Origin: Caldisericum exile
GTDB lineage: Bacteria > Caldisericota > Caldisericia > Caldisericales > Caldisericaceae
Assembly: GCA_002877955.1 (NCBI GenBank)
Contig: PNIL01000055.1
Span: 1 to 38,761 of the forward strand
Length of the DNA stretch: 38,761 nt
Direction: 5' to 3'
The notes under the pieces are model-generated. The model had not been told where the DNA came from and searched no databases. It saw nothing but the letters and a program-made list of their open reading frames with translations. Made by a program: the position numbers and the translations under genes. Positions within the stretch are counted from its first letter, which is position 1; every line of letters starts with the position of its first letter. Positions 4,417 to 35,865 of the stretch are shown here, in pieces.

Positions 4417-4471
4417 ACAACTCAATTATATACTCTTTGTAAAAAATCCTTATTTTACATATAATAAAACT
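4417..4471. promoter_or_regulatory. Divergent promoters, DUF763 gene and phoB
   Basis: This short divergent interval carries two -10 boxes. For phoB (+): TTGTAA (4437-4442), 17-bp spacer, TATAAT (4460-4465), then exactly 6 nt to the ATG, so transcription would start at the ATG. For the DUF763 gene (-): TATAAT then 8 nt to its ATG. Neither gene has a Shine-Dalgarno, so both look leaderless. Confidence 0.65.
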
Positions 4472-5140
4472 ATGAAGAGGATAGCGATTATTGATGACGA
4501 AAAGGACATCGTAGATCTTGCCTCCTTTTATGTGGAAAGAGAGGGGTTTAAGGTCGACAAGTATTACACAGGAGATAGTTTTCTTAATGCAATTGGTTCG
4601 AAAAAGTACGATTGTATTGTATTGGACTTGATGCTCCCGAATGTTGATGGGCTTACGATTCTCAAAACACTTAAATCAAGGGAAGATACAAAAGACATTC
4701 CTGTTATTATCCTTACTGCAAAAAACTCTGAAGGTGATATGGTTCTTGGACTTGAAATGGGTGCAAACGATTATATTCCAAAACCATTTTCACCAAGGGT
4801 ACTTGCAGCAAAAGTTAAGGCTTTTGTAAGGGAAGGCAAAAAAACTGTTATTCAGGCAGGAGATATTACTCTTGATGTTGCAAACTACCTTGTCTATTGC
4901 AAGGATAAACCTGTAAAACTTACACCTACGGAATTTAGACTCCTAAAGATTCTTATTGAAGGAAAAGGAAAGGTTTTCACAAGAGAGGAACTCCTAAATG
5001 AAGCGTTCCTCCATACGGTTTCTCCCACAGAGCGTGCTGTTGATGTGCATATTAAAAGCATTAGAGACAAACTTCATGATTGCGGTAAATACATCGCAAC
5101 TGTAAGGGGGGTTGGCTACAAATTCCAGCTCGAAGAATAA
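4472..5140 (+). CDS. phoB: OmpR-family response regulator PhoB/PhoP
   Basis: A 222-residue two-domain regulator. The receiver (about 1-118) has the acidic pair D8/D9, phospho-acceptor D52 in VLDLMLP and the conserved Lys in YIPKPF. The winged-helix domain (about 125-222) has LTPTEFRLLKILIEGKGKVFTREEL and ends in the typical RGVGYKF. Followed by a histidine kinase and the complete pst operon, so it most probably governs the response to phosphate limitation. The phased TTTAAC repeats upstream of pstS are its likely target. The ATG has no Shine-Dalgarno and sits 6 nt after a TATAAT. Confidence 0.93.
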   Translation: MKRIAIIDDEKDIVDLASFYVEREGFKVDKYYTGDSFLNAIGSKKYDCIVLDLMLPNVDGLTILKTLKSREDTKDIPVIILTAKNSEGDMVLGLEMGANDYIPKPFSPRVLAAKVKAFVREGKKTVIQAGDITLDVANYLVYCKDKPVKLTPTEFRLLKILIEGKGKVFTREELLNEAFLHTVSPTERAVDVHIKSIRDKLHDCGKYIATVRGVGYKFQLEE

Positions 5141-5223
5141 ACCTATATTTACTAACAGCAATAGCTATTATAACAATTTCAACAGTTTTATTATCTTTTA
5201 GGTTTTTCCTAAGATTTATTATT

Positions 5224-6426
5224 GTGTTCCTTTCGTTAGCTATTGTAATATTAATCTTTTATCTCTTTAATGAGCTAAACGATTTAAAAAACCTGGAACA
5301 ACTTCTAAAATTAACTCTTGATGGAAATGAGATTAAAGGTGTAGAAAAATCACTTCTAATTTTTGATGAAATTAGAGAAAACACACTTTTGCTTAACAAA
5401 TCGTATATTTCAAAATTAAAAGAGTTAAATGATTTGCAAACTATTTGCAATGAACTCTCCAAAAAAATTGACGAAGCAATAATTATCATAAATTCTCAAG
5501 GAGAAATTATCTTTAAAAACCCTCAGTCTGATAGCATTATTAAGCTTAAAGATAAGAAAATTTACTATGAAGCCATAAGAAATAGTGAAATGATATCGTT
5601 AATTAGTAATGCTTTAGAATCCGAAAAAGAAATTAAAAAGCAAATCGAAATAAATGGAACACTGTATGACATTTCAGCATTCCCTATCATAATAAAAGAG
5701 ACCCCGCATTTACTTCTAATAATCAAAAAATTGGATGACTTTAAAGTAGAAACACTTCTAAAAACACAATTTTTGGAAGCAGTTTCTCATGAAATGAAAA
5801 CGCCACTTTCCTCAATCCTCGGGACAGTTGAAATACTTGAAAATGAAGGCTTTATAAAGAAAAAGGGTGAAAAATTCTTGCAAATTCTCAAAGAAAACAC
5901 TGAAAGACTTAAAAAACTTACAGAAAGAATTCTTAAACTAAGTGAAATTGAATCGGGAAGAAATAGTCTTAAGGAAATTGTTGATTTTTCAAAACTATCT
6001 AATGAAGTTATAAAAAAATTTGAAAATCATTTTAAGGAAAAAGGTCTTGAATTTTCGTATAACATAGAACTAAATTCAACAATAAGAGGTAATTACTTTC
6101 TTTTAGAGGATGTACTAATAAATCTCCTTGAAAATGCTTTGAAGTATACAGAAAAGGGCAAAGTAATGCTAAATGTTTTTAGTGACGACAAATTTATATA
6201 TGTTGTAATAGAAGATACAGGAAAAGGTATTAAAGAAGAAAATGTTGATAAAATATTTGAACCATTCTATAGAGAAGACTCTTCAAGAAATGAAATAGTA
6301 AAGGGTACCGGGCTTGGATTAACAATTACTAAAAGAATAGTGCAGATGCACTCAGGAGAAATTAAGGTAGAAAGTAAATTAGGCGCAGGTACTAAATTTA
6401 CCTTGAAATTCCCAAAAATTATTTAA
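5224..6426 (+). CDS. phoR: Phosphate sensor histidine kinase PhoR
   Basis: Membrane sensor kinase partner of PhoB. From the GTG given here: one hydrophobic segment (2-15), a coiled linker, a PAS-like region (about 82-170), HisKA with phospho-acceptor H189 in AVSHEMKTP, N-box ENALKYTEKG (303-312), G1 DTGKGI (331-336) and G2 GTGLGL (361-366). The start is doubtful. The frame stays open upstream back to about 5089 and encodes a further hydrophobic segment (LYLLTAIAIITISTVLL, then FRFFLRF), giving a transmembrane hairpin typical of PhoR. No ATG, GTG or TTG exists there; an ATA at 5137 overlaps the phoB stop. The GTG is thus the first conventional codon, not necessarily the real start. Confidence 0.88.
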   Translation: MFLSLAIVILIFYLFNELNDLKNLEQLLKLTLDGNEIKGVEKSLLIFDEIRENTLLLNKSYISKLKELNDLQTICNELSKKIDEAIIIINSQGEIIFKNPQSDSIIKLKDKKIYYEAIRNSEMISLISNALESEKEIKKQIEINGTLYDISAFPIIIKETPHLLLIIKKLDDFKVETLLKTQFLEAVSHEMKTPLSSILGTVEILENEGFIKKKGEKFLQILKENTERLKKLTERILKLSEIESGRNSLKEIVDFSKLSNEVIKKFENHFKEKGLEFSYNIELNSTIRGNYFLLEDVLINLLENALKYTEKGKVMLNVFSDDKFIYVVIEDTGKGIKEENVDKIFEPFYREDSSRNEIVKGTGLGLTITKRIVQMHSGEIKVESKLGAGTKFTLKFPKII

Positions 6427-6459
6427 CTTTATTTAACCATATTTTAACTGAATTTTAAC
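6422..6459 (+). promoter_or_regulatory. Candidate Pho box: four phased TTTAAC repeats
   Basis: Direct repeats of TTTAAC begin at 6422, 6432, 6443 and 6454, a period of 10-11 bp (one helical turn), immediately upstream of the pstS promoter. The first overlaps the phoR stop codon. This matches the Bacillus PhoP site in sequence (TTAACA-like) and phasing, making it the probable PhoB/PhoP operator. Confidence 0.8.
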
Positions 6460-6474
6460 CAAAAACTCTTTTAT

Positions 6475-6502
6475 TTGAAATTATACACCTCTATTATATA
6501 AT
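6475..6502 (+). promoter_or_regulatory. pstS promoter
   Basis: TTGAAA (6475-6480), 16-bp spacer, TATAAT (6497-6502). The start site would fall near 6509, at the edge of the GGAGGTGAGGG ribosome-binding site, so the leader is very short. A TATACA at 6482-6487 is an alternative -10 if PhoB replaces the -35 contact. Confidence 0.6.
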
Positions 6503-6515
6503 TGGAGGTGAGGGC

Positions 6516-7376
6516 ATGAATAATAAAAGGAAATTCTTAGCGTATCTTTTGGTAGGTATCATGGTATTTTCAGTTGTCTTTATCTTTACGGGATGCAAAC
6601 AAGCTTCTCAGAAGGAAGCGGCACAAGAAGCTAAAATCACTATGAATGGATCAACAACTGTATTCCCAATCGCCCAAAGAGCAGCTGAAGTGTATATGAA
6701 CAAGCACCCTAATGTGAAAATTTCAGTTGAAGGAACAGGTTCAGGAAATGGAATTGCCGCACTTATTGATGGCACGACAGATATTGCAAACGCTTCAAGA
6801 GAAATAAAGCCAGAAGAAATTGAAAAAGCAAAGGCAAAGGGAGTAAATCCCTACGAAACAAAAATTGCACTCGATGCAATTGCTATTATTGTAAACCCTG
6901 CGAATCCTATTACAAATCTTACAAAACAACAGGTGATTGACATTTTTACTGGAAAAATTACAAACTGGAAAGATTTAGGTTGGAAGGATACCCCAATCGT
7001 TGTAGTATCAAGAGATACATCTTCAGGTACATACGGAACATTTATGGAACTTGTAATGCCTCATGGTGCTCAGATTACAGATAAAGCAACATTCCAATCA
7101 TCAAGTCAAGCATTGAAAAACACGGTTGCAACAACAGAAGGAGCAATAGGTTATGTTGGTTTAGGTTATTTAGATTCTCAAGTTAAGGCCGTAGCATACG
7201 AAGGTATAATGCCTTCTAAAGAAACTGTAGTTAATCATACATACAAATTGTCTCGATTCCTTTATATGTATACAAATGGCGAACCTAAAGGTGAAGTAAA
7301 GAATTTTATAGATTTTGTTTTGTCACCTGAAGGACAGGATATTGTAGAGAGCGTTGGATTTATTAGAATAAAGTAG
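6516..7376 (+). CDS. pstS: Phosphate-binding lipoprotein PstS
   Basis: Extracytoplasmic phosphate receptor of the Pst ABC transporter. The N-terminus is a lipoprotein signal: NNKRK, a hydrophobic stretch and a lipobox FTGC with acylated C27. The phosphate-binding motifs are NGSTTVFPIAQ, GTGSGNGIAAL, DIANASREI and SRDTSSGTYGTF. At 286 residues it is a compact PstS. It opens the pstSCAB-phoU operon; pstC starts one base after its stop codon. Confidence 0.97.
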   Translation: MNNKRKFLAYLLVGIMVFSVVFIFTGCKQASQKEAAQEAKITMNGSTTVFPIAQRAAEVYMNKHPNVKISVEGTGSGNGIAALIDGTTDIANASREIKPEEIEKAKAKGVNPYETKIALDAIAIIVNPANPITNLTKQQVIDIFTGKITNWKDLGWKDTPIVVVSRDTSSGTYGTFMELVMPHGAQITDKATFQSSSQALKNTVATTEGAIGYVGLGYLDSQVKAVAYEGIMPSKETVVNHTYKLSRFLYMYTNGEPKGEVKNFIDFVLSPEGQDIVESVGFIRIK

Positions 7377-7377
7377 C

Positions 7378-8247
7378 ATGAAAAGAAACTTAATAGAGTA
7401 CTTACTACCAATATTTGGTTACATTGCGATTCTGATAGTTGGAGGTATCATAGTAGTTATTTCAATAGAAGGAATGCCACTTCTTTCAAAGTACTCTATT
7501 ATTGAACTTATAACTTGTAAAGAGTGGAGACCGACATCAACACCTCCACTCTTTGGCTTTTTACCTTCAATCATTTCAACGTTTTTTATTGCCTTTTTCT
7601 CGATGCTCTTTGCAATTCCTTTATCACTTGGAACTGCAATATATTTATCAAAATTAGCCTCACCGAAATTAAGAAGTATTCTGAAACCAACAATTGAACT
7701 TCTTGCAAATATCCCTTCTGTTATATATGGAGTTTTTGCCCTTCTTTTTTTGGCACCATTAATAAAAAAGTTATTTAATCTTCCAATAGGATTAAACGGC
7801 TTAAACGCAAGCATTATACTTGCCATAATGTCTATCCCCACCATAACTACTCTTTCAGAAGATGCAATTTCCATGGTCCCTAAAGAGCATGAGCTTGCAT
7901 CATATGCACTTGGTGCGTCTAACCTTGAAACAATCTTCGGAATCACGCTACCAAGTTCTTTAGAAGGAATATTTGCATCTATAATTGCAGGATTTGGCAG
8001 GGCAATTGGCGAAACTATGGCCGTTCTTATAGCATCCGGAAATTCCATAAGAATTCCTCGCTCAATTTTAGAACCAATGAGGCCAATAACAGCAACAATT
8101 GCACTTGAAATGGCAGAAACTCCCGTAGGTTCAGACCATTACCGGGCTTTGTTTTTACTTGCATTGATACTACTTTTCTTAGTTCTTTCCTTTAACTTAC
8201 TAAGCAGATACCTAAAATCACTTTATAGGCGAAAACTATATGGATAA
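7378..8247 (+). CDS. pstC: Phosphate ABC transporter permease PstC
   Basis: This inner-membrane permease of 289 residues has about six hydrophobic helices, starting at LLPIFGYIAILIVGGIIVV. The cytoplasmic coupling (EAA) loop reads HELASYALGASNLETIFGI, followed by GFGRAIGETMAVL, as usual for PstC. It pairs with PstA to form the channel. Its gene overlaps the pstA start by 8 bp, indicating translational coupling. Confidence 0.95.
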   Translation: MKRNLIEYLLPIFGYIAILIVGGIIVVISIEGMPLLSKYSIIELITCKEWRPTSTPPLFGFLPSIISTFFIAFFSMLFAIPLSLGTAIYLSKLASPKLRSILKPTIELLANIPSVIYGVFALLFLAPLIKKLFNLPIGLNGLNASIILAIMSIPTITTLSEDAISMVPKEHELASYALGASNLETIFGITLPSSLEGIFASIIAGFGRAIGETMAVLIASGNSIRIPRSILEPMRPITATIALEMAETPVGSDHYRALFLLALILLFLVLSFNLLSRYLKSLYRRKLYG

Positions 8248-9091
8248 AACTAAAAAAGAATTCATTTTCTTTACAATCTTTAGATTCTTTGCGTTCGTTT
8301 CGGTATTAATAGTTTTAACACTTCTTTTCTATATTTTCTCGAGAGGATTAAAAGTCATTTCTCTCAATTTTATAATTGATTATCCAAGAAATGGTTTTAC
8401 AGAAGGTGGAATATTACCTTCTATAGTTGGTAGTATTTATCTTTTGGGACTTGCAAGTCTTTTTGCTGTACCCATTGGAGTTTTAGGTGGAATATACCTT
8501 TCAGAATACACAAAGGAAAATACACTAACGAATGCTATAAGACTTTCTATCGATACACTTTCTGGCATACCCTCAATCATTTTTGGCCTTTTTGGTCTTG
8601 CAGTATTTTCAAAGATGTTGGGATTTAAAATATCTCTTCTTTCTGGCAGTTTAACGCTTTCAATTCTAATGCTTCCCACAATCTTTTCAGCAACAATCGA
8701 AAGCCTAAAGCTTGTCCCCAAAGACTTTAGAGATGCATCATTTGCACTTGGTGCAACAAAATGGCAAACAACATTTGAAATTGTTTTAAAAACTGCTATG
8801 CCAAATATTATAACAGGAGTACTTTTAAGCATAGGAAGAGCAATTGGTGAGACAGCACCAATATTGTTTACTGGAGCAACCTTTTACACAAGAGGTCTCC
8901 CTACAAGTATTTTTGAACCAGTAATGGCGCTTCCCTATACAATTTACGGACTCCTTACAGAAGGAACATTCCCACAAAAACAAGTACCGATTGCCTTTGG
9001 TGCTTCAATTGTCCTAATATTGATTGTTTTTATTATTACACTTCCAGGTATAATAATAAGGAATAAATACAGGAGCAATAAAAAATGGTAA
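8240..9091 (+). CDS. pstA: Phosphate ABC transporter permease PstA
   Basis: The second permease subunit, 283 residues, with about six membrane helices. The coupling loop is [19 protein letters not shown], followed by [16 protein letters not shown]; the GRAIGETAP signature distinguishes PstA from PstC. The ATG lies inside the end of pstC, and the gene overlaps the pstB start by 7 bp. Confidence 0.95.
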
Positions 9092-9837
9092 AAATTGCTG
9101 TGAGACACTTAAATGCATACACAAAAAAGCAAAAAATTCTTAAAGACATAACTCTTGACATTTATGAAAACGCAGTTACTGCAATAATAGGACCCTCTGG
9201 ATGTGGAAAATCAACATTTCTTAGAAGTCTCAATAGGATGAATGACTTTTTTGAGGATATAACCATAGAAGGAGAGGTCCTGTTGGATAACAAGAACATC
9301 TACGATAAAGATATGAATGTTTTTGAACTAAGAAAAAATGTTGGCATGGTTTTCCAGAGACCAAACCCATTTCCAAAGTCAATCTTTGAAAATATAGCAT
9401 ATGGACTCAAAATTCATGGTGAAAAAGACAAAAAAGTCATCGAAGAAAAAGTTATTTGGGCTCTCAAAGAAGCAAATTTATACGAAGAGGTAAAAGACAA
9501 ACTAGGTGATTCTGCTTTTAGTTTATCTGGAGGACAACAGCAGAGACTTTGTATTGCAAGAGCAATTGCAATAGAACCAAAGGTGCTTTTAATGGATGAA
9601 CCAGCTTCTGCTTTAGATCCAATTTCAACAATTCAACTTGAACGGTTAATAGAAAAATTGAAAAAAGAATTCACTATTGTAATTGTAACACATAATATTC
9701 AGCAAGCAGGAAGAATTTCTGATTATACAGCTTTTTTCTACATGGGTGAATTAGTAGAATATGACAAAACAGAGAAGATATTTACAACTCCAAAGAAAAA
9801 ACTCACAGAAGATTATCTTGAAGGAAGATTTGGATGA
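9085..9837 (+). CDS. pstB: Phosphate ABC transporter ATPase PstB
   Basis: Cytoplasmic ATPase that powers phosphate import, 250 residues. Walker A is GPSGCGKST (36-44), the Q-loop segment is [12 protein letters not shown] (the PNPFP run is typical of PstB), the ABC signature is LSGGQQQR (147-154) and Walker B is VLLMDEP with DEPASALDP. The switch His is in [10 protein letters not shown]. All catalytic elements are present. Confidence 0.97.
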
Positions 9838-9845
9838 GGTGAAAA

Positions 9846-10514
9846 ATGTTAGAAGATAGATTAAAAGTTTTAACTGAAAAAGTCTTAAAAATGTCTTCCA
9901 TTGCAGAAGAAATGGTTAAATTATCAGTTAAATCAATAGTAGAAAAGAAAATGGAATTAGCAGAAAAGGTTATAAATGAGCTTGAACCTCAGGTCAATGA
10001 ACTTGAAATTGAGATTGATGATCTTGCAATTGAAACACTTGCGCTCTATTCACCACAAGCAAAGAATCTAAGAAAAATTGCAATGATTATCAAAATGGTA
10101 AAAGACCTTGAAAGAGTTGGAGATCTTTCTGTTAATATCGCAGAATTTGGTAGAGAATTAATTCCGCAACCAGATGTAAAACCATATATTGATCTACCGA
10201 GGATGACTGAAACTGCTTTACAAATGTTAGACGATGCAATTACTGCATTTGTTAATGAAGATAGCAAATTGGGAAGAGAAATTTGCGTGCGTGACGATAT
10301 TGTAGACCAATTAAATGATCAGATTATAAGAGAGTTAATCACTTATATGTTAAGCGATCCAAGAACAATTAACAGAGCAATACTTATAATAAGAGTTTCT
10401 GAAAATGTCGAGCGTATTGCAGATCAGGCAACTAATATTGGTGAATATGTTGTTTATATTGGTGAAGGAAAAGTAATAAAACACCATCATTTTGAAAAAG
10501 AAGAAAACAATTAA
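9846..10514 (+). CDS. phoU: Phosphate signalling protein PhoU
   Basis: PhoU links Pst transport to PhoR, keeping the kinase off when phosphate is plentiful. The 222-residue protein is wholly helical with two similar halves, each with a metal-binding-type E/D-rich motif: KDLERVGDLSVNIAEF in the first and SENVERIADQATNIGEYV in the second. The ATG follows a GAGGTGAAAA Shine-Dalgarno 8 nt after pstB. Its stop codon overlaps the stop of the convergent phospholipase-like gene, leaving no space for a separate terminator. Confidence 0.96.
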   Translation: MLEDRLKVLTEKVLKMSSIAEEMVKLSVKSIVEKKMELAEKVINELEPQVNELEIEIDDLAIETLALYSPQAKNLRKIAMIIKMVKDLERVGDLSVNIAEFGRELIPQPDVKPYIDLPRMTETALQMLDDAITAFVNEDSKLGREICVRDDIVDQLNDQIIRELITYMLSDPRTINRAILIIRVSENVERIADQATNIGEYVVYIGEGKVIKHHHFEKEENN

Positions 10515-11476: not shown

Positions 11477-11506
11477 TCCTCCTCCTTTAAGTCTTCTACT
11501 ACTGCT

Positions 11507-12352
11507 CTAAAAACCTCCAACAACTGTATCTTGGCCATCTTTCATATATGCAAAAAACATTCCTTTGGTATTAAAGGAGTATCCTATATTGCCATTTTTA
11601 TCAAGCGCTATTAGACCTCCGTGGCCGTTAATTCCACTTAAATCATCTATGCATTTTTTAACAGCATCACTAATAGAGTAGTTAGGGTAATACAACGAAA
11701 TTCTAAAACTTAAAATAACTTTCATTATATCCTCACCAATGCCAGTTGAAACTGCGCCAAACTCAGAATTCGCATAAAATCCTGAGCCAACTATTGGGGA
11801 ATCACCAACACGACCTACATGTTTTTTAGGCGTACCACCTGTTGAAACAGCAGAAACAATTTTATTTCCATCTAAAACCACCGCTCCTACTGTATCACCG
11901 TATGTACCTTCAAAAATTTTTATAATGCGATCCGTATAAAAATAGTATGGTGGAACAAATTCAAGACCGTTTTCTAAGGCAAACTTTTCTGCTCCATCTC
12001 CTATAAGAATGTTATGGTGTGATTTTTCCATTACAAGACGCGCAAGTTCAATGGGATTTTTTAGCCTTTTAATACCTGCAACAGCACCAATTGAAAGTGT
12101 AGATCCATCCATAATTCCTGCATCCATTTCTACAAAACCTTCCTCATTGAGATATGAGCCTCTCCCTGCATCAAAAAGCGGATGATCCTCAAGCATTTTT
12201 ACTACTCTAACTGCTACTTCAACTGCATTAAGACCGCTTTTTAATAAATCAAATCCATAGTTTGCAACCTTTTTAACAAAATCAACCCTTTCGGGTATTT
12301 CTTCTGTTCTTTTTGCATCACCTGCACCACCATGTACAATTATTGCCCTCAT
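11507..12352 (-). CDS. iaaA: Isoaspartyl peptidase / L-asparaginase, Ntn-hydrolase
   Basis: A plant-type asparaginase/isoaspartyl dipeptidase of 281 residues, which removes beta-aspartyl residues from degraded proteins or hydrolyses asparagine. Motifs: HGGAG (7-11), LFDAGRGSYLNEEGFVEMDAGIMDG, and the autocleavage site GDTVGAVV with nucleophile T154. GGTPKKHVGRVGDSPIVGSGFYA supplies the substrate-binding Arg and Asp, and GHGG lies near the end. The ATG at 12352 follows GGAGG; an in-frame TTG further upstream lies within the Shine-Dalgarno region and is not used here. It fits a lifestyle based on protein and amino-acid breakdown, and repair of heat-damaged Asp/Asn. Confidence 0.93.
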   Translation of the reverse strand: MRAIIVHGGAGDAKRTEEIPERVDFVKKVANYGFDLLKSGLNAVEVAVRVVKMLEDHPLFDAGRGSYLNEEGFVEMDAGIMDGSTLSIGAVAGIKRLKNPIELARLVMEKSHHNILIGDGAEKFALENGLEFVPPYYFYTDRIIKIFEGTYGDTVGAVVLDGNKIVSAVSTGGTPKKHVGRVGDSPIVGSGFYANSEFGAVSTGIGEDIMKVILSFRISLYYPNYSISDAVKKCIDDLSGINGHGGLIALDKNGNIGYSFNTKGMFFAYMKDGQDTVVGGF

Positions 12353-12380
12353 TTTGCCTCCTTTCAATTCATGCCTTTAA

Positions 12381-12431: not shown

Positions 12432-12461
12432 TGCATGCAAGTAAAATTTGGAGTTTATTAA

Positions 12462-22624: not shown

Positions 22625-23338
22625 TTAAAATTTAAAGATTTCTCTAAACTCACTTTGTCGATGCGGTGAAAGTGGAAGTCTATCTCCATTATCCATTTCT
22701 ATAAGATACCTTCCCTTAAACCAAGGAATAATTTTAGAGATTTTAGATAAATTAATGAGATACTCTTTATTTATTCTAAAAAAACCAAAAGTAGAAAACC
22801 TATTTTCTGCACCTTGAAGATTGAGTCCCTTAACAGGCATCTCCTCTTTTCCTTTTTTAATGTATAGTTTGCCCCCTTCAGTAAAGAAATACGATATATC
22901 GCCTAACCTCACAAGCAAAAGTTCGTCCTTTAAATTACACACAACAAAATTCTCTTTTTTGTTTTCTTTTTGAGAAAGCACATTTTTAATCTTTACAATT
23001 GTTTTAAAAAATCTACCTTCATCAATTGGCTTTAGAATATAGTCAATTGCACCAACATCAAAGGCATCTACTGCGAATTCAGAATAGGCAGTTACAAAAA
23101 TAATCAGAGGAAAATCTTTAAACTCTTTTATCTGATTTGCAAGTTTTACACCAGAAATGCCACCTAAATTTATATCAAGAAAAATAACCTCTACTGCATT
23201 TTGAGATACAAAATTAAATGCTGTAACTGCATCTTCAAATTCACCCAAAATTTTCACTTCGGGAAATTTTTGAAGAAGTCTTTTTAACTCTTCCCTTGCA
23301 GGTTCTTCGTCATCGACGATAATCGCTCTAATATCCAA
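22625..23338 (-). CDS. LytTR-family response regulator (BtsR-like)
   Basis: A 237-residue regulator: receiver (1-118) with VDDEEPAREEL, phospho-acceptor D55 in IFLDINLGG and the conserved Lys in YILKPIDE; LytTR DNA-binding domain (about 132-237) with the family pattern GDISYFFTEGGKLYI and FFRINKEYLINLSKI. It starts with TTG (23338), 9 nt after GGAGG; this restores MDIRAIIVDDE and no ATG is available. The start lies 55 bp inside the kinase gene, so the two are translationally coupled. The next gene downstream is cstA, its probable target. Confidence 0.9.
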   Translation of the reverse strand: MDIRAIIVDDEEPAREELKRLLQKFPEVKILGEFEDAVTAFNFVSQNAVEVIFLDINLGGISGVKLANQIKEFKDFPLIIFVTAYSEFAVDAFDVGAIDYILKPIDEGRFFKTIVKIKNVLSQKENKKENFVVCNLKDELLLVRLGDISYFFTEGGKLYIKKGKEEMPVKGLNLQGAENRFSTFGFFRINKEYLINLSKISKIIPWFKGRYLIEMDNGDRLPLSPHRQSEFREIFKF

Positions 23339-25044
23339 TTTGGAGTGCCTCCTTTTGGTATCCCAATTATAACTTTAGTTCCTTCATTAATTCTACTTTT
23401 AATCTTAAACATTGCATTACTACCAAAAAGATTTAAAACCCTATCTCTCACATTTTTAAGTCCAAAAGATTTTTTATTTTCAGAACTATTAAATATAGTT
23501 TTAAGAGTTTCTTCGCTTATACCTTTCCCATTGTCTTCTACAACAAGATAAACATAATCCCCCCTTCTGTAAGCTATGATTTTTATAGTAATATTCCTTT
23601 TAGTTAAAGAAAACCCATGCTTTACGGCATTTTCAACAATTGGCTGCAAAATCAATGCTGGAATCTTTATATCGTAAAGGCTTGAATCAATATTAAATTC
23701 ATAATTTAGGCGCTCTTTGAACCTTTCTTTTTCGATCTCAAGATATGCCTTCACAAGACTAATTTCTTCGTCCAATGTGGAAAGTGTCTCTTCGGCTTCA
23801 ATTGTCTTCCTCAATATAAATGAGAGTTTTTTAACCAATTCCCCACCTTTTTCAGGGTCGGTTCTTGCAATATAACTTATAGTATTCAGACTGTTAAAAA
23901 GAAAATGTGGGTTAATTCTTGATTGGAGCGCCTTAAGTTGAAAAAGGGTCTTCATCTTTTTTTCAGTCTCAAGCTTATTTAGTTCAACCTGTAAAGAAAG
24001 GATATTAGCTAATCCTTTTGCCATTTCAACATCAAATAGTGTCATCGTATTGCGTTCTTTTCTATAAAGTTTAAGGGCACCAAATACATTTCCCTCTGAA
24101 TCTTTTAAGGGAACAACGATGCCTGACATAAGGGGACAATCTTTTACGGAACAACCTATGTCAAATTCATTCTTCATAAGAATTATCTTTCCGCTACTCA
24201 ATGCTTTCTTTGTTGATATTGTTAAAATAGGAGAAAGCGGCTTGTGGTGATAAGAACCAATTCCACGGAAAGCAAGAATTTTTTCTGTATCAGTTATTCC
24301 AACTGCATCAAGGTTAGTATTTTCAAGTATAACTTTAACTGTTTCATCAGCAGTTTCAGGTGTAAGCCCTTTACTTAGGATTGGCAAAGTTTTTTCGGTA
24401 ATCTTAAGAACCTTTTCCGCAGTTATTGCCGAAACGATTTCTTTTTCCATAAAGGACACTTTTATTACAAGCAAAAACAACCCAACACCCACTGCATTTG
24501 CTGAAATCATTGGTCCTGAAACAGTTTTAATGAGAGTAAGCGCCTTGTTAAAGGGAGGAGATATGAGAAGCACAAGCAACATATGAAAACTTTCTGCTAA
24601 GATAGCGAATGTAAATCCTAAGAGAGGGGAAAAATATTTTCCTTTTTTTCTTGTATAAAGTAATCCTGCAAAAATACCATTTAATATCGTCGCAAGTGCA
24701 CAAGAATTTGCCGTAAAGCCACCAAGATAAGCCCTATGCATACCCCCCATAATTCCTGCAATAAGACCAACAATAGGACCTCCAAAAAGCCCACCGGTGA
24801 TTGCACCTACATCTCTAATATTTGCAATCGCATCGTTAGTTTGGACGCCAAGAAGCGTTCCCAACATTGAAATAAAACCAAAGAACAAACCAAGGTATAT
24901 TTGTTTTTTTACAGAGGATTCGAGATTGAATAGAGCTCTTGCAATTGGAGTTTGGGTAAGAATAAATGCAACAGTTATTATAACTGTAAGTGACTGAAAT
25001 AACCATACATACAAAGAAAATTTACTCAAATACAAATTAATCAT
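23284..25044 (-). CDS. LytS/BtsS-type sensor histidine kinase
   Basis: A 586-residue membrane kinase. The N-terminal 5TM-LYT sensor domain (about 1-185) is recognisable from GAITGGLFGGPIVGLIAG and GGMHRAYLGGFTANSC. A GAF-like domain (about 215-345) contains CSVKDCPLMSGIVVPLKD. The catalytic part has the LytS-class phospho-acceptor SRINPHFLFNSLN, VENAVKHGF and DNGKGI. In E. coli BtsS senses pyruvate through this architecture; the ligand here is unknown. I chose ATG 25044 over an upstream TTG: TATAAT lies 6 nt ahead of the ATG and there is no Shine-Dalgarno, implying a leaderless mRNA. The C-terminus overlaps the regulator gene. Confidence 0.9.
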   Translation of the reverse strand: MINLYLSKFSLYVWLFQSLTVIITVAFILTQTPIARALFNLESSVKKQIYLGLFFGFISMLGTLLGVQTNDAIANIRDVGAITGGLFGGPIVGLIAGIMGGMHRAYLGGFTANSCALATILNGIFAGLLYTRKKGKYFSPLLGFTFAILAESFHMLLVLLISPPFNKALTLIKTVSGPMISANAVGVGLFLLVIKVSFMEKEIVSAITAEKVLKITEKTLPILSKGLTPETADETVKVILENTNLDAVGITDTEKILAFRGIGSYHHKPLSPILTISTKKALSSGKIILMKNEFDIGCSVKDCPLMSGIVVPLKDSEGNVFGALKLYRKERNTMTLFDVEMAKGLANILSLQVELNKLETEKKMKTLFQLKALQSRINPHFLFNSLNTISYIARTDPEKGGELVKKLSFILRKTIEAEETLSTLDEEISLVKAYLEIEKERFKERLNYEFNIDSSLYDIKIPALILQPIVENAVKHGFSLTKRNITIKIIAYRRGDYVYLVVEDNGKGISEETLKTIFNSSENKKSFGLKNVRDRVLNLFGSNAMFKIKSRINEGTKVIIGIPKGGTPNWILERLSSMTKNLQGKS

Positions 25045-25078
25045 CAATAAATTATACAAAAAATACTATAATGTTATA
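25045..25078. promoter_or_regulatory. Divergent leaderless-type promoters
   Basis: Only 34 bp separate two divergent ATGs. Plus strand: TATAAT 25067-25072, then 6 nt to the MBL gene ATG. Minus strand: TATAAT 25051-25056, then 6 nt to the kinase ATG. No Shine-Dalgarno on either side; -35 elements are poor. Confidence 0.65.
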
Positions 25079-25723
25079 ATGGAAAAAATAAAAGTAAAAG
25101 GAATTGAGATTTTAAAATTCGTGTTTAATCCTCTTTCCACAAACTGCTACCTTATAAATGCAAATGGTTATTCTATTGTTGTTGATCCCTCAAATATGAG
25201 TGACTATGAGACAGAGGAACTCGTCCATGAAATTAGAAATCCAAATTTATATATTTTCAATACACATGGTCATTTTGACCACATAGTGGGTAATGGTATT
25301 TTAAAAAAGTTTTATGCTAATTCTAAAATAGTTATCCATAAAAACGACTCAGAAATGCTTTTAGATCCAAATAAAAATAAATCTTACATAGCAGGAATCG
25401 AAATAATTTCGCCTCCACCAGATATTGAAATCGAGGAAGAAACTGAGTACTTAATATGTGGAATAAATCTAAAAATCATACATACACCCGGCCATACGAA
25501 AGGAAGTATATCGATTATCGGTGATAATTTTGTTTTTACAGGAGACACATTATTGCAAGAAACTGTGGGAATTGCAAAAGATTATCAAAACGCCTTTAAC
25601 GAACTCATTGATTCAATAAAAAATAAATTGCTTATTTTAAACGACGAATTTATCGTCTTGCCCGGACACGGAGAAATAACAAAAATCGGTGATGAGAGAG
25701 CTTTTAATCCATTTTTAAATTAA
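25079..25723 (+). CDS. Metallo-beta-lactamase fold hydrolase
   Basis: A 214-residue MBL-fold enzyme of the glyoxalase II-like type. The metal-binding motif is THGHFDH (H63, H65, D67, H68), with further ligands in HTPGHTKGS, FTGDTLL and LPGHGE. It likely hydrolyses a thioester or similar ester. The ATG has no Shine-Dalgarno and sits 6 nt after TATAAT, so the transcript looks leaderless. It is followed by glmM after 37 bp. Confidence 0.88.
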   Translation: MEKIKVKGIEILKFVFNPLSTNCYLINANGYSIVVDPSNMSDYETEELVHEIRNPNLYIFNTHGHFDHIVGNGILKKFYANSKIVIHKNDSEMLLDPNKNKSYIAGIEIISPPPDIEIEEETEYLICGINLKIIHTPGHTKGSISIIGDNFVFTGDTLLQETVGIAKDYQNAFNELIDSIKNKLLILNDEFIVLPGHGEITKIGDERAFNPFLN

Positions 25724-25760
25724 CTTTGCAAAATCAGAAAATTCCATAAAATATTTACGT

Positions 25761-27068
25761 ATGAGAAAAATATTTGGAACAGATGGAGCAAGAGGCATTG
25801 CAAATATAGAAATTACACCTGAAATTTCTTTAAGAATAGGTGTTGCAATAGGGAAACTCTTTTACGGAAATGGACCAATTCTTATTGGTGAAGATACAAG
25901 GCTGTCATCAGAAATGTTAAGGCTTGCTCTTGCAACAGGTATTATAAGTGCTTCAACAGATGTAACAATCGGCTTTATTATGCCAACACCTGCGGTATCT
26001 TTGCTTTTACGAATTATGAAAAATTTCTCAGCAGGGTGTGTCGTTTCGGCATCACACAATCCTATTGAATTTAACGGAATCAAGATATTTGACAAAAATG
26101 GGTTTAAACTGAGCGATGAGAATGAAGAGTATATTGAAGAACTTATGGAAAGTAACATCGAAAGAAGCCCTGTAAACATTGGCAGAGTTTTTTACGACGA
26201 AAATATAAGAGATTTTTATGTTGACTATATAGCAGGTAGATTTCCTTTAAATCTTTCAAATTTGAAGATTGCGCTTGATTTAGCAAATGGATCTACATAC
26301 TACACAACTCCTCAAACTCTAAAAAAACTCACCGCACAAATTTTCCCAATTAACGATAAACCTGATGGACACCGAATTAATGTAGAATGTGGTTCAACCC
26401 ATCCACAGGTAATTTCAAGACATACAGTAAATAGTGGAGCTCACATTGGCATCTCACACGATGGTGACGGCGATAGAGTAATACTTTCTGATGAAACAGG
26501 AAGAATTGTAGATGGCGATGATATAATGGTTATACTTGGAAGACACTTCAAAAAGAAAGGACTTCTTAAAAATAATACAATTGTTGGAACTGTTATGACA
26601 AACCTTGCTATAGAAAATATTTTGAAAAGCGAAGGTATAAATTTCAAGAGAGCTCCCGTTGGCGACAGATATGTACTACAAGAGATGCTAAAATCAGGAG
26701 CAATTCTTGGAGGAGAACAATCAGGGCATATTATAAACTTGCTTGAGAGTGTTACAGGAGATGGCTTAATTACAGCACTAAGTGTGCTAGAAGTTATGGT
26801 AGAGGAACAAAAACCTCTATCAAAATTAGTTGAAGGGCTTGAAAGGTTCCCTCAAATATTAGTTAATGCAAAAGTAAAAGACAAAGATGTCATAAACGAT
26901 GAAAAATTCAAACAATTCGTAAGAGAAATGGAAAAGGAGTTAAAGACTGGAAGAATTATAATAAGATCTTCAGGAACCGAGCCTGTAATACGTATAATGG
27001 TTGAAGGTGATAACGAGATAAAAATTAGAGATATAGCAAATAGAATAAAAGAATATTTGGAGGTTTGA
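25761..27068 (+). CDS. glmM: Phosphoglucosamine mutase GlmM
   Basis: Converts glucosamine-6-phosphate to glucosamine-1-phosphate for UDP-GlcNAc and peptidoglycan synthesis. At 435 residues it has the alpha-D-phosphohexomutase layout: FGTDGARG (5-12), catalytic phospho-serine S98 in SASHNP, the metal-binding DGDGDRV loop, GGEQSGH and the C-terminal phosphate-binding RSSGTEPVIRI. There is no Shine-Dalgarno upstream; an AT-rich -10-like TAAAAT lies 8 nt before the ATG, suggesting leaderless initiation from an internal promoter. The glmS ATG begins two bases after the stop codon. Confidence 0.97.
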   Translation: MRKIFGTDGARGIANIEITPEISLRIGVAIGKLFYGNGPILIGEDTRLSSEMLRLALATGIISASTDVTIGFIMPTPAVSLLLRIMKNFSAGCVVSASHNPIEFNGIKIFDKNGFKLSDENEEYIEELMESNIERSPVNIGRVFYDENIRDFYVDYIAGRFPLNLSNLKIALDLANGSTYYTTPQTLKKLTAQIFPINDKPDGHRINVECGSTHPQVISRHTVNSGAHIGISHDGDGDRVILSDETGRIVDGDDIMVILGRHFKKKGLLKNNTIVGTVMTNLAIENILKSEGINFKRAPVGDRYVLQEMLKSGAILGGEQSGHIINLLESVTGDGLITALSVLEVMVEEQKPLSKLVEGLERFPQILVNAKVKDKDVINDEKFKQFVREMEKELKTGRIIIRSSGTEPVIRIMVEGDNEIKIRDIANRIKEYLEV

Positions 27069-27069
27069 A

Positions 27070-28890: not shown

Positions 28891-28919
28891 ATAAAAACCA
28901 AAAAATTCTACATAAACCC

Positions 28920-28947
28920 TTGACAATAATTTAAAAATCTGTATCAT
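28920..28947 (+). promoter_or_regulatory. Promoter of the tRNA-Ala/leuS operon
   Basis: TTGACA (28920-28925, consensus), 16-bp spacer, TATCAT (28942-28947). The start site would be close to the first base of the tRNA at 28958. Confidence 0.72.
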
Positions 28948-28957
28948 TGTGTATAGT

Positions 28958-29033
28958 GGGGCTATAGCTCAGTTGGTAGAGCGCCTCCTTGGCGTGGAGG
29001 AGGTCAGGGGTTCGACTCCCCTTAGCTCCACCA
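28958..29033 (+). tRNA. tRNA-Ala (anticodon GGC)
   Basis: A 76-nt tRNA with encoded CCA. The acceptor stem GGGGCTA/TAGCTCC contains the G3:U70 wobble pair that is the alanine identity element. The D-arm (GCTC/GAGC), the anticodon stem CCTCC/GGAGG with loop TTGGCGT (anticodon GGC, reading GCC/GCU), and a T-arm closed by CAGGGG/CCCCTT around TTCGACT are all intact. Only 26 nt separate it from leuS, with no terminator, so they are probably transcribed together. Confidence 0.97.
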
Positions 29034-29059
29034 ATTTTTTTAACACTACGAGGTGTTAG

Positions 29060-31519: not shown

Positions 31520-31528
31520 GAGGATAAA

Positions 31529-31717
31529 ATGGCGCAACCTAAAAAGAAAACAACGCACTCAAGAAGCAGAATGAGAAAGATTAAAGAGAAACTCGATTCC
31601 TTAAACCTTGTTGAGTGTCCTCATTGCCACAACCTTATTCCACCTCACAAAGTATGTCCTTACTGCGGATATTACGAAGGAAAAGAGGTAGTTAAGGTAG
31701 AGACAAAGGAAAAATAA
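31529..31717 (+). CDS. rpmF: 50S ribosomal protein L32 (zinc-binding form)
   Basis: A 62-residue ribosomal protein. AQPKKKTTHSRSRMRK is the L32 N-terminus, and two CxxC pairs (CPHC and CPYC, about 32-47) bind zinc, so it is the C+ paralogue. AGGAGG lies 4 nt before the ATG. It lies 9 bp after leuS and 17 bp before rnc. Confidence 0.97.
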   Translation: MAQPKKKTTHSRSRMRKIKEKLDSLNLVECPHCHNLIPPHKVCPYCGYYEGKEVVKVETKEK

Positions 31718-31734
31718 TTCTTTAAAGATCTCTC

Positions 31735-32472
31735 ATGGCAGAGAAACCTTTAGAAAAGGCTTTTAAAGAACGAATTGATGCCTTGGAGAAGATTGTAGGA
31801 CGGAAGATTCCCAAGAGATGCAGAGAAACCTTTATAACTGCAGTTACTCACTCATCTTTTTCAGGAGAACACAAAAATTACCGTTCGAATGAAAGGCTTG
31901 AGTTTTTGGGAGATTCCGTCCTTTCGCTTTCAATCACTCATTATCTTCTCTGCACTTATAAGGATTTAACTGAAGGTGAATTGAGTAGAAAAAGGGCTTA
32001 TCTTGTTTCCGAAAAGAGCCTTTCAAAAAAAGCAGAGATTGTTGGAATTGGAGATTTAATGCTCTTTGGAAAGGGAGAAAATAAAAGTGGTGGTAAATTT
32101 AAAGGAGCAATTCTTGCAGATGCATTTGAGGCATTAACAGCTGCAATATTTCTGTGCTTCGGTTTCGAAGAAGCAGAAAAATTTATAACGAATGTTTTCA
32201 AAACAGAACTTGAGAATGCAGGTAGCATTGAAACTATTGACGCAAAAACAAAACTGCAAGAGAAAATTCAAAAGGTCATACATAAAGTCCCTGAATACAG
32301 AATTGTGAAAGAGGAAAAGATCGACGATACAAAATATTTTGTTGCGGAAGTAAGGCTCAACGGAAAAGTTTTAGGAGAAGGAAAAGGAAAAACTAAGAAA
32401 GAAGCAGAAGAAAAAGCTGCTGAGGTTGCACTTGAGAATGAATATATTCGAGAAATTGAAAAATCTGTTTAG
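31735..32472 (+). CDS. rnc: Ribonuclease III
   Basis: Cuts double-stranded RNA in rRNA maturation and mRNA turnover. 245 residues. The catalytic domain has the signature NERLEFLGDSVL with acidic metal ligands, and the second acidic motif is ADAFEALTAAIF. The C-terminal double-stranded RNA-binding domain (about 165-235) has DAKTKLQEKIQK and GKGKTKKEAEEKAAEVAL. The ribosome-binding site is poor, so translation may be coupled to rpmF. The last 35 bp overlap ftsY. Confidence 0.96.
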   Translation: MAEKPLEKAFKERIDALEKIVGRKIPKRCRETFITAVTHSSFSGEHKNYRSNERLEFLGDSVLSLSITHYLLCTYKDLTEGELSRKRAYLVSEKSLSKKAEIVGIGDLMLFGKGENKSGGKFKGAILADAFEALTAAIFLCFGFEEAEKFITNVFKTELENAGSIETIDAKTKLQEKIQKVIHKVPEYRIVKEEKIDDTKYFVAEVRLNGKVLGEGKGKTKKEAEEKAAEVALENEYIREIEKSV

Positions 32473-33271
32473 CAAAAAGGATTTAGCAACAGAAGAAATT
32501 GAAGAATTTCTTATTTCAAAAAATTTCGGAATAAAGTTCACAGAAGAGTTTATAGAAAAGCTTAAGGAAAGCAAAATTGACTATTTGGAGCTTTTTGAAA
32601 AACTAATTAGAGAAACATTCAACAGTGTTGATACAAAAGTTAATACGGATGGGCCAAAGCCTGTGATTTTTGTCTTTGCTGGATCAAATGGATCTGGCAA
32701 AACAACAAGTATTGCAAAAATAGCAAATTACCACAAAAAGAGAGGATTTAAAAATATTTTACTTATCGCAGGTGACACCTTTAGATCTGGTGCAACGGAA
32801 CAGCTCTCAATATGGGCAGAACGTATTGACGTTGATATAGTTAAAGGGCAATCAGGTCAAGACCCTGCAAGCGTTGTATTTGATGGACTTTCAAAAGAAG
32901 GCATCTATGATCTAATTCTTGTTGATACCTCAGGAAGAGTCGAAACAAATGAAAACCTACTTAGAGAATTAACAAAAATAGAGAAGGTTATACTTAATAA
33001 AAAAGGACATATAAATGAGGTTTTTCTTGTACTTGATAGTCTCACAGGCTTGAATGCATTTAATCAAATGGAAGCATTCGTAAAAGCAATAAATGTTACA
33101 GGCATTATACTCACTAAATTCGACTCAAATAGTGCACCAGGAGTCGTTGTTCCAATTGTTCAAACCTATAAAATCCCAGTTAAATTCATTGGAACAGGTG
33201 AGGGAATTGAAGATTTAGAAGAATTTTCTGTCGATACTTACATACACAAACTAACGGGAGGTACTAAATGA
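32438..33271 (+). CDS. ftsY: SRP receptor FtsY
   Basis: Membrane receptor GTPase for the signal recognition particle. At 277 residues it consists of the NG domain only, without the acidic A domain found in E. coli. Motifs: G1 GSNGSGKTTS, DTFRSGATEQL (where DTFRAAA is usual), G3 DTSGR and G4 TKFD. The G4 loop reads TKFDSNSAPG, unlike the usual TKLDGTAKGG. I chose ATG 32438; the frame is open 12 bp further to a TTG. It lies inside the end of rnc and overlaps ylxM by 4 bp (ATGA). Confidence 0.93.
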   Translation: MNIFEKLKNLFSKKDLATEEIEEFLISKNFGIKFTEEFIEKLKESKIDYLELFEKLIRETFNSVDTKVNTDGPKPVIFVFAGSNGSGKTTSIAKIANYHKKRGFKNILLIAGDTFRSGATEQLSIWAERIDVDIVKGQSGQDPASVVFDGLSKEGIYDLILVDTSGRVETNENLLRELTKIEKVILNKKGHINEVFLVLDSLTGLNAFNQMEAFVKAINVTGIILTKFDSNSAPGVVVPIVQTYKIPVKFIGTGEGIEDLEEFSVDTYIHKLTGGTK

Positions 33272-33636
33272 AAAACATAACGCCAAGAGAAAAGAAACTT
33301 ATAAAAAAAGCAAGAGTAAAAGAATTACTGGAAGTTTATTCAAATTTACTCACGGATAAAGAAAGAAAGATTCTCACACTTTATACTGACCCAGCCTTAA
33401 GTGGAGCTGCCATTGCAAAGAAGTTAAAAGTTTCAAGGCAGGCAATTCATGATCACATAAGACGTGGCATCAACAAAATGGAAAGATGTGAAACAAAATC
33501 AAAATTATTAGAAAAAAGAAGAAGAAAAATGAAAATATTCCTTGAAATTGAGGGCATCCTTTCCAAAAAAGAACTCTCAAAAGAGGATGTGCAAACTTTG
33601 AATAAACTATTTGAACAATTAAAAGACTTGGATTAG
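33268..33636 (+). CDS. ylxM: YlxM-family HTH protein
   Basis: A 122-residue protein of the UPF0122/YlxM family, which is encoded beside ffh and ftsY in Gram-positive bacteria and modulates SRP in streptococci. It has a sigma-70 region-4-like helix-turn-helix at about 25-70: LLTDKERKILTLYTDPALSG, then AAIAKKLKVSRQAIHDHIRRG. Its ATG overlaps the ftsY stop, and the following gene is ffh, so all three are translated together. Confidence 0.92.
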   Translation: MKNITPREKKLIKKARVKELLEVYSNLLTDKERKILTLYTDPALSGAAIAKKLKVSRQAIHDHIRRGINKMERCETKSKLLEKRRRKMKIFLEIEGILSKKELSKEDVQTLNKLFEQLKDLD

Positions 33637-33646
33637 GAGGCATACC

Positions 33647-34957
33647 ATTTTTGAATCTTTAAAGGAAAGCATAAACACAGTCCTTAAAAAGCTACGTTCA
33701 AAAGGCCATTTAAGTGAAGCAGATATAAAAGCAGCTATTAAAGAAATTAGACTTGCACTACTTGAAGCAGATGTTAATTATAAGCTTGTAAAAGAAATTA
33801 CCGAGAAAGTTGAAACTGAGGCAAAGTCCTCAAAAGTGCTAGAGAGTTTCACTCCCGCTGAACAAATTTTGTCAATTTTATATTCAGTCCTTGTAGACTA
33901 CGTTGGACACTCAGAAAAGCTAAAACTTCATGGAGGTAAAAACTTCATTATACTTGTAGGTTTACAGGGAAACGGTAAAACTACCACAGCTGCCAAACTT
34001 GGATATTATCTAAAGAAGAAATTAAATTACAATCCAATTCTTGTGCCTTTTGATTTCAAACGTCCTGCAAGTTTCGATCAACTTATTCAACTTGGAAAAT
34101 CAAATGACATTGCTTATCTTGATTTAAGAAATGAAGAAAATATGAGAATTGCTCTATCTAAAATTGATTCATATATGGAAAAAAATGGTTTTAATGTCGC
34201 TATCATAGATACTGCTGGGAGAAAAGAGATCGACACCCCTCTTATGGAAGAATTGAAGTTAATAAACAACTATTTTGAGGATCCAGAGACACTCATGGTA
34301 ATGGATGTTACCTTGGGACAAACCTCATTGGATATAGTAAAGGGCTTTAAAGAATATCTCAAGATAACAGGGGGCATATTTACAAAATTTGATTCATCTG
34401 CTAAAGGTGGTAGTGTTTTATCCTTTAAATATGTAACGGGGAGCCCTGTAAAGTTTGTTGGAACCGGAGAAAAAATTCAAGATCTTGAACCATTTGACGG
34501 CGATGCTCTTATTTCAAGATTGGTTGGAAGAGGAGATTTAAAAGGACTCTTTGAAAAGGCACAAGAGGCAATTTCTCTTGAAGAGAGTGAAAAAATAGCA
34601 AAAGATTTCCAAAGTGGAAATTTTGACTTAAATGATTTAAAGATGCAACTTGAAAGTCTTCTTAAAATGGGAGGACTATCGAAAGTATTCTCAATGCTTC
34701 CAAATTTTTCAAATCTAAAGATTCCAAAAGAGTATATGGATGAAAAGGCATTGAGAAGGATGATTGCTATCATAAACGCAATGACAAAGGAAGAAAGAGC
34801 ACATCCAGAAATTATAAATGCATCAAGAAAAGAACGCATTGCTAAGGGCACTCATGTAAGCAAAGCAGAAGTAAATCAACTTCTCAAAAACTTTGAAAAT
34901 TTCAAAAAATTATCGAAAAACCTTAAGAATCTTGATATATCAAAATTTAGATTTTAA
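33647..34957 (+). CDS. ffh: Signal recognition particle protein Ffh, ATT start
   Basis: SRP54 homologue that binds signal peptides and 4.5S RNA. The full frame gives 436 residues, the normal length. The N-terminus FESLKESINTVLKKLRSKGH is in-frame from ATT at 33647, which lies 6 nt after a perfect AGGAGG. No ATG, GTG or TTG is available there, and the first GTG (33836) would delete the N domain. GTPase motifs: VGLQGNGKTTT, PFDFKRPASFDQL, DTAGR and G4 TKFDSSAKGGS (usually TKLDGDAKGG). The M domain has SRKERIAKG and ends LKNLDISKFRF with few methionines. The stop overlaps that of the convergent transporter gene. Confidence 0.88.
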   Translation: MFESLKESINTVLKKLRSKGHLSEADIKAAIKEIRLALLEADVNYKLVKEITEKVETEAKSSKVLESFTPAEQILSILYSVLVDYVGHSEKLKLHGGKNFIILVGLQGNGKTTTAAKLGYYLKKKLNYNPILVPFDFKRPASFDQLIQLGKSNDIAYLDLRNEENMRIALSKIDSYMEKNGFNVAIIDTAGRKEIDTPLMEELKLINNYFEDPETLMVMDVTLGQTSLDIVKGFKEYLKITGGIFTKFDSSAKGGSVLSFKYVTGSPVKFVGTGEKIQDLEPFDGDALISRLVGRGDLKGLFEKAQEAISLEESEKIAKDFQSGNFDLNDLKMQLESLLKMGGLSKVFSMLPNFSNLKIPKEYMDEKALRRMIAIINAMTKEERAHPEIINASRKERIAKGTHVSKAEVNQLLKNFENFKKLSKNLKNLDISKFRF

Positions 34958-35853
34958 TCCCCTTTTAAATTTACTCGATTTATAAAATAACTTGAAATAA
35001 GAATTAATATACCACCCAAAACTGCATATATTGTAAGTTTTTCTTTAAGAAGAAGTGTGCCGTAAAGCGTAGAAAAAAACGGAACAAGGTAGCCAACAAA
35101 AGAAGACTTTCCTGCACCAAACTTTGATATTGCGTAAAAGAAATATGTATATCCAATCCCATTGAGTACCACGCCAGCAAAAATAAGAGCAAAAATAGAC
35201 TGATAAGTGAAATCTGGCGCTGGAAGTTTAAAAATTGGAATTGCAACCAATGAAAACAAAAAACCAAATATCATCAAATAGAAAGATGATGTAAATGCAT
35301 CCATAAAGCTTGAAACCTTCTTAAGAAGAATAACCCCAATCGCATAAGAAATCGAAGCAAACGCTACAAGCAATAAATTCAGTATATTAATTGAAATCTT
35401 TGCTTTGATGAATTCGTTAAAGAAAATGAAAAATACACCTAAAAATCCAAACAGAAAATAAGGAACTAATTTGTAATTTAACTTTTCATTCGTAAATAAA
35501 ATTGAAAATATCAATGCAAAAATTGGCGAACTTGCCAATAATAAAGATGCAATATAGCTTGGAACAGTCCTTTCACCGAAAGATATAAGAATTTGGGGTA
35601 AAAATGTGTCAAAAAAGGCCGCACTCAAAACAAAAATTAATGCATTTTTTTCAAATATAATATTCCTCTTTAAAATGAACTTTAAGATTATAAAAATTGA
35701 TATTGCTCCAATAAGAAGTTTTAATGACACAAAAAGAATTGGATGAAAACTCTTTATGATGATTTTAATAAGTATATAATCTGACCCCCAGATAAGCGAA
35801 AGTGAAAGTATACTGAAAGTAAAATTATCTATGAGACTTTTAAGTTTTGCCAT
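34954..35853 (-). CDS. EamA/DMT-family transporter
   Basis: A 299-residue integral membrane protein with about ten helices in two EamA-like halves, typical of the drug/metabolite transporter superfamily. It starts near LSLIWGSDYILIKIIIKSF, and VGYLVPFFSTLYGTLLLKEKL in the second half is the recognisable EamA motif. Substrate is unknown. I chose ATG 35853 over a TTG 15 nt upstream: TATAAT ends 6 nt before the ATG and there is no Shine-Dalgarno. It lies downstream of the rRNA operon on the same strand, past the 5S terminator. Confidence 0.87.
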   Translation of the reverse strand: MAKLKSLIDNFTFSILSLSLIWGSDYILIKIIIKSFHPILFVSLKLLIGAISIFIILKFILKRNIIFEKNALIFVLSAAFFDTFLPQILISFGERTVPSYIASLLLASSPIFALIFSILFTNEKLNYKLVPYFLFGFLGVFFIFFNEFIKAKISINILNLLLVAFASISYAIGVILLKKVSSFMDAFTSSFYLMIFGFLFSLVAIPIFKLPAPDFTYQSIFALIFAGVVLNGIGYTYFFYAISKFGAGKSSFVGYLVPFFSTLYGTLLLKEKLTIYAVLGGILILISSYFINRVNLKGD

Positions 35854-35859
35854 TTGTAA

Positions 35860-35865
35860 ATTATA
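35860..35865 (-). promoter_or_regulatory. -10 box of the EamA gene, leaderless type
   Basis: Minus-strand TATAAT with exactly 6 nt to the ATG; -35 region is T-rich and poor, partly coinciding with the 5S terminator T-tract. Confidence 0.6.

Follow-up and report, generated by a model that had tools for sequence, protein, structure and literature searches.

Four genes of the window, i.e. the whole stretch of 38,761 nucleotides of Caldisericum exile DNA analysed here (contig PNIL01000055.1), carry a perfect TATAAT exactly six nucleotides before the ATG, and this raises the question whether such boxes direct the synthesis of mRNAs that begin with the start codon itself. In sigma-70-type promoters the usual start site lies six bases after the -10 box, and the A of the ATG would therefore be position +1. 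RNA polymerase starting at this A would give an mRNA without a 5' leader, whereas with a box at 5, 7 or 8 nt the leader would have from zero to about two bases. An mRNA with AUG at its first position is bound through the initiator tRNA on the ribosome, and the ribosome would here start on the 5'-terminal AUG, presumably by this mode of entry. The reading that we favour, with a probability of about 0.87, is that TATAAT-N6-ATG represents a sigma-70-type -10 box giving leaderless mRNA at a minority of the first genes, most other first genes and the operon-internal genes being probably led by a Shine-Dalgarno (SD) sequence.

The window contains five TATAAT-N6-ATG matches, compared to a mean of 0.72 and a maximum of 3 in 100 dinucleotide shuffles. 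Four of them are gene starts, which the first-pass annotation had located correctly; the gene families were assigned with Pfam. The box at 4460..4465 (+) precedes the ATG at 4472 of a phoB-type response regulator (4472..5140, +; Response_reg and Trans_reg_C), predicted to be leaderless, and a -35-like TTGTAA (4437..4442, +) lies 17 nt upstream of it; the arrangement TTGTAA-N17-TATAAT was also found in G009 and G012, two other genomes of the genus. The predicted leaderless LytS-type sensor kinase (23284..25044, -; 5TM-5TMR_LYT, His_kinase and HATPase_c) has its box at 25051..25056 (-) and its ATG at 25044, and is divergent from a metallo-beta-lactamase-fold (MBL) hydrolase (25079..25723, +; Lactamase_B), likewise predicted leaderless, with the box at 25067..25072 (+) and the ATG at 25079. 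The two start codons are 34 bp apart and the two boxes 10 bp apart (25042-25081). The fourth gene, a predicted leaderless EamA-type transporter (34954..35853, -), has its box at 35860..35865 (-) and its ATG at 35853; the 5S rRNA gene (35897-36013, -) ends 31 nt before this box and 44 nt before the start. The fifth match (34802-34816, -) is background, being antisense within the ORF 33836-34957, judged by eye to encode an SRP-GTPase, and in another frame than the overlapping minus-strand ORF 34477-34851.

Two further genes had been described as similar, and this proved right. A DUF763 gene (3352..4416, -), predicted to be leaderless or to have a 1-2 nt leader, shows TATAAT at 4425..4430 (-) and N8 to the ATG at 4416, and a glmM-type phosphoglucosamine mutase (25761..27068, +; PGM_PMM domains), a weaker candidate, shows TAAAAT at 25747..25752 (+) and N8 to the ATG at 25761; both the TATAAT-N8 and the TAAAAT-N8 are also present in G009. 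Among named organisms the glmM protein is closest to those of Caldisericota MAGs (Caldiserica, Caldisericaceae, Caldisericota or Caldisericum), at 56-61% identity, all other relatives reaching 45% or less. The divergent LytS/MBL pair, as judged by coordinates, occurs in 10 of 17 other genomes of the family.

The genome from which the window derives (858,782 bases, 55% complete) was found to contain 35 TATAAT-N6-ATG matches, compared to 10 for the reversed pattern. Spacing was analysed in a sample of 561 kb, formed by the window and 40 further stretches, which covers 65% of this genome and contains 27 of the 35 matches. Out of 496 ORFs, 449 were kept (those with 70 nt of sequence upstream and an ATG no further than 150 nt from their first start), comprising 243 internal starts, 156 first-gene-like starts and 50 excluded ones (32 lacking a neighbour and 18 with one at 40-79 nt). 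When the in-frame ATGs within the first 90 nt of the called ORFs were examined at spacings of 0-40 nt, perfect TATAAT showed a peak of 15 at 6 nt, with 7 at 8 nt and 0-6 elsewhere up to 40 nt, the mean over the other 40 spacings being 2.6. As controls, TATAAT at 6 nt was found before 3 later in-frame ATGs and 9 other ATGs, and 12 of the 27 TATAAT-N6-ATG matches lay away from candidate starts. The degenerate TANNNT raises the background to 3-11 per spacing up to 31 nt and leaves the peak at 6 nt in place, with 18/156 first-gene-like starts.

A scan for a peak at 6-7 nt had been suggested by the first-pass annotation, and in the window's genus such a peak is present. In G009 (420 kb, 135 first-gene-like starts) perfect TATAAT was found 6 times at 6 nt, 4 times at 7 nt and at most 3 times at any other spacing. 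The sample of G003 (400 kb), which belongs to another family of the phylum (f2), lacked a clear peak, its 91 first-gene-like starts having 4 boxes at 6 nt, 3 at 7 nt, 5 at 29 nt and 4 at 23 nt. Separated by start codon, the samples of the window's genome and of G009 together gave a peak at 6 nt for ATG (43) and a small rise at 5-6 nt for GTG (9 and 8), with no rise at any such spacing for TTG.

The layout had been claimed to mark first genes, and in a weaker form this claim stood in the sample of the window's genome, where the first ATG of each ORF was preceded by perfect TATAAT at 6 nt in 10 of 156 first-gene-like starts but in 1 of 243 internal ones (p = 0.0005), the assignment of starts and of first-gene status being that of simple ORF calls with a 40-nt rule for internal genes, so that glmM was classed as internal, and spurious ORFs in rRNA may count as neighbours, as in the case of EamA. 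The figures for TANAAT at 6 nt were 15/156 and 2/243, and those for perfect TATAAT in G009 were 6/135 and 1/181. First-gene enrichment is not clear in G003, where 4 of 91 first-gene-like starts and 4 of 179 internal starts had the box at 6 nt, a further 3 internal ones having it at 7 nt. The stronger form of the claim, a systematic rule by which all first genes are leaderless, was rejected. A near box, defined as TANAAT 5-8 nt before the start, occurs at only 26/156 first-gene-like starts in the sample of the window's genome, 18/135 in G009 and 11/91 in G003, i.e. at 12-17% and at 55 of 382 altogether. Within the window itself 17 starts are non-internal. A near box precedes 5 of these, and an SD match of four or more bases precedes 11 of the remaining 12, for example those of pstS (6516) and of the minus-strand genes starting at 12352, 14721 and 22477.

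The absence of SD sequences from the named genes was confirmed, as phoB, the LytS-type kinase, the MBL hydrolase, EamA, DUF763 and glmM each have at most three contiguous SD bases upstream. In the three samples pooled, SD matches of four or more bases were found at 6 of 55 near-box starts compared to 57 of 69 starts with a box at 11-24 nt, a depletion that is partly forced because a box at 5-8 nt fills the place of the SD sequence. The separate values for the window's genome, G009 and G003 were 2/26, 2/18 and 2/11 at near-box starts, 22/27, 19/22 and 16/20 at starts with a box at 11-24 nt, 71/103, 67/95 and 40/60 at other first-gene-like starts, and 192/243, 135/181 and 119/179 at internal starts. 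Interior methionines of the window's genome show such matches in 559 of 2000 cases (p = 0.025 against the 2/26 of near-box starts). An in-frame downstream start with five or more SD bases within 90 nt was present at 1 of 55 near-box starts and at 35 of 327 other first-gene-like starts. The anti-SD CCUCC of 16S rRNA is kept: GGNTCACCTCCTTT is present in 11 of 18 genomes of the family, with no match in the incomplete genome of the window. In the available part of PMC10783764, Caldiserica are placed under the anti-SD ACCUCCUU.

Conservation of the spacing was followed in G009, of which 820 kb were compared with the sample of the window's genome. With an identity threshold of 50% the comparison gave 230 reciprocal-best pairs; 10 were dropped for want of a shared start codon or for being too near an end. 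Among the remaining 220 pairs a near box was found in both members of 25, in the window's genome only in 1, in G009 only in 2 and in neither in 192. Of the 26 near boxes, 25 had a G009 counterpart whose spacing differed by no more than 1 nt, and in 21 cases it was identical. The proportion was 16 of 35 for boxes 12-24 nt away (p = 2e-5) and 18 of 37 for those 25-40 nt away; for perfect TATAAT the corresponding values of the three classes were 15/16, 7/16 and 9/20. The distance from box to start is thus held. In columns outside the box, 11 to 22 of the 25 near pairs were identical, the conservation of the box letters themselves arising partly from how the pairs were selected, and the 192 other pairs showed an identity of 0.61-0.73 outside the SD region. 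The 26 near-box starts include genes other than first genes, and where a box overlaps an upstream coding sequence, as some do (e.g. that before 7378), its conservation need not mean a promoter. A 5-base SD match was present at 2 of the 25 conserved near-box starts. Leaderless initiation of the named genes, as originally proposed, is supported by the spacing peak, the kept spacing and the absence of SD sequences, and remains a prediction from sequence.

These data bear on an improbable alternative, according to which the boxes are -10 elements of secondary promoters and the main transcripts start further upstream, being leadered and translated independently of SD through unstructured A/U-rich leaders. 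More TATAAT sequences do lie upstream at many spacings in this genome of 34% GC, and the DUF763 gene has boxes at both 8 and 35 nt. A distant main promoter, however, leaves unexplained why the two members of 25 out of 26 ortholog pairs differ in spacing by no more than 1 nt, and, with the LytS and MBL starts only 34 bp apart, any further-upstream promoter would fall inside the neighbouring gene.

The quality of the putative promoters argues in the same direction as the leaderless reading. A -35-like hexamer (at least four of the six bases of TTGACA, 16-18 nt away) accompanies 23 of the 55 near boxes, compared to a mean of 8.9 and a maximum of 17 in 500 shuffles; for leadered starts the values were 43/116 with a null of 18.5 and a maximum of 31. 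The extended -10 element TGn was present at 10/55 near-box and 27/116 leadered starts, these being raw counts without a null. The near boxes look like sigma-70-type promoters, predicted to yield leaderless or near-leaderless mRNAs. It is very improbable that the layout is reserved to a special regulon or an alternative sigma factor, a proposal that is itself compatible with leaderlessness and to which two-component regulators, two of the four window genes, lend some colour; the -10 and -35-like boxes are similar to the housekeeping consensus and the window genes have no evident common function. Least credible of all are chance matches in an AT-rich genome or misassigned start codons. Both TATAAT and ATG occur often, one window match, the fifth, is background, and 12 of the 27 matches in the sample lie off candidate starts; the observed counts nevertheless exceed those of shuffles, of the reversed pattern, of other spacings and of interior methionines, and relatives of phoB use the same start codon.

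The comparison with relatives gene by gene covers best matches only, more distant or partial ones being left out, and orthology is presumed, some matches lying near 50% identity. N6 was found upstream of phoB in the four genomes of the genus that have the gene, namely that of the window, G009, G011 and G012; the fifth, G010, gave no phoB match. TATAAT stands at 14, 15 and 14 nt in G008, G017 and G015, with a G-rich SD-like stretch between box and start, and in these genomes the ATG used aligns with the leaderless ATG. G007 has a distance of 11 nt and G006 one of 27 nt together with a G-rich stretch, while G014 and G020 have no TATAAT within 80 nt upstream of phoB and both have an SD-like sequence. 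The LytS gene shows N6 in the same four genomes, SD-like sites in G008, G017, G018, G022 and G007, TATAAT at 14 nt in G013, and neither box nor SD-like site in G006 and G016. For MBL, TATAAT stands 5-8 nt before an in-frame start in 11 of the best 15 matches, the window's own included (10 ATG and one GTG, that of G020; the starts of G018, G020, G021 and G022 were read by eye), and is absent in G006, G014, G015 and G016. EamA has three close matches, with N6 in the window's genome, N5 in G009 and N7 in G011. Altogether the near box is missing from 7/11 best matches of phoB, 8/12 of LytS and 4/15 of MBL.

These upstream regions show a constant layout within the genus, a wider occurrence across the family in the case of MBL, and other arrangements in its place elsewhere. 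For phoB and lytS the layout is that of one genus, and sister genera have other layouts, often SD-led. A possible but doubtful extension of the leaderless reading holds both that genera came to differ between leaderless and SD-led starts by short indels that fell after a fixed -10 box and before the start, and that the overlapping LytS/MBL promoters act as mutually exclusive switches. With starts 34 bp and boxes 10 bp apart, one polymerase should block the other.

The reach of the layout in the phylum was estimated from counts of TATAAT-Nx-ATG against the reversed control in 54 genomes of seven families (f1-f7, f1 being that of the window). The totals were 1273 vs 556 for N6, 1238 vs 824 for N7 and 778 vs 525 for N12. 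In f1 (18 genomes) the counts were 656 vs 278 for N6 and 318 vs 265 for N12. An excess specific to the spacing, N6 compared with N12, was also found in f4 (77/29 and 48/29), f6 (158/65 and 111/89) and f7 (52/10 and 16/9); it is weak in f3 (15 genomes; 38/15 and 38/21) and absent from f2 (5 genomes; 257/106 and 198/75) and from the single genome of f5 (35/53 and 49/37). Support outside the window's family is uneven, and the case for a reach beyond that family is weakened accordingly.

Leaderless genes at such a spacing are well known, and Caldisericota is a new taxonomic case, as predicted from sequence; the feature is real, its mechanism ordinary and the group new. The likeness to Deinococcus-Thermus drawn by the first-pass annotation is apt. 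In the available part of PMC12340547, which scans species across the bacterial domain, a -10 motif TANNNT, mostly TACACT, is reported for nearly one third of the genes of D. radiodurans, at about 6-7 bp in front of the ORF, other genes having an RBS motif, and leaderless mRNA is assumed. Unlike that system, the boxes found here are mostly TATAAT or TAAAAT, occur at 55 of 382 first-gene-like starts and have -35-like boxes above shuffles. The accessible text of Zheng et al. 2011 (PMC3160421) describes TA-led genes with a Pribnow-like signal about 10 bp upstream, TAtAAT in low-GC Firmicutes, holds that within an operon leaderlessness is possible for the proximal gene alone, and reports that orthologs exchange a TA for an SD signal, or the reverse, as phylogenetic distance grows; the present genes share the Pribnow-like signal, the proximal-gene bias and the changes of signal between orthologs. 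Caldisericota is not among the bacterial groups with leaderless genes given in that text, and a literature search under Caldisericum and Caldiserica returned no report of leaderless genes in the phylum. The same authors suggest that a leaderless start could restrict the translation of read-through transcripts, to which the EamA start, 44 nt past the 5S rRNA gene, can be related. Predicted leaderless initiation is hereby extended to a little-studied phylum, where gene finders expecting an SD sequence could misplace starts, and phoB, where one and the same start codon would lack a leader in a single genus and follow an SD sequence in others, may be useful for testing a change of initiation mode.

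Some minor features of the window were also observed. Upstream of pstS, near phoB, four TTTAAC units (at 6422, 6432, 6443 and 6454) lie 10-11 bp apart in 6422-6459 (+), an array that we take to resemble a Pho box. It includes two perfect TTAAC-N5-TTTAAC matches; with up to two mismatches this pattern has 29 matches in the whole window, not above shuffles (34). At 6497-6516 (+) pstS shows TATAAT followed directly by a strong SD (GGAGGTGAGGG) at a spacing of 13, and, if this TATAAT is the -10 box, a leader of no more than about 6-7 nt would result and the SD would lie partly upstream of +1. At the contig start (2-145) there are two 56-nt direct copies (15-126) and a partial further copy.
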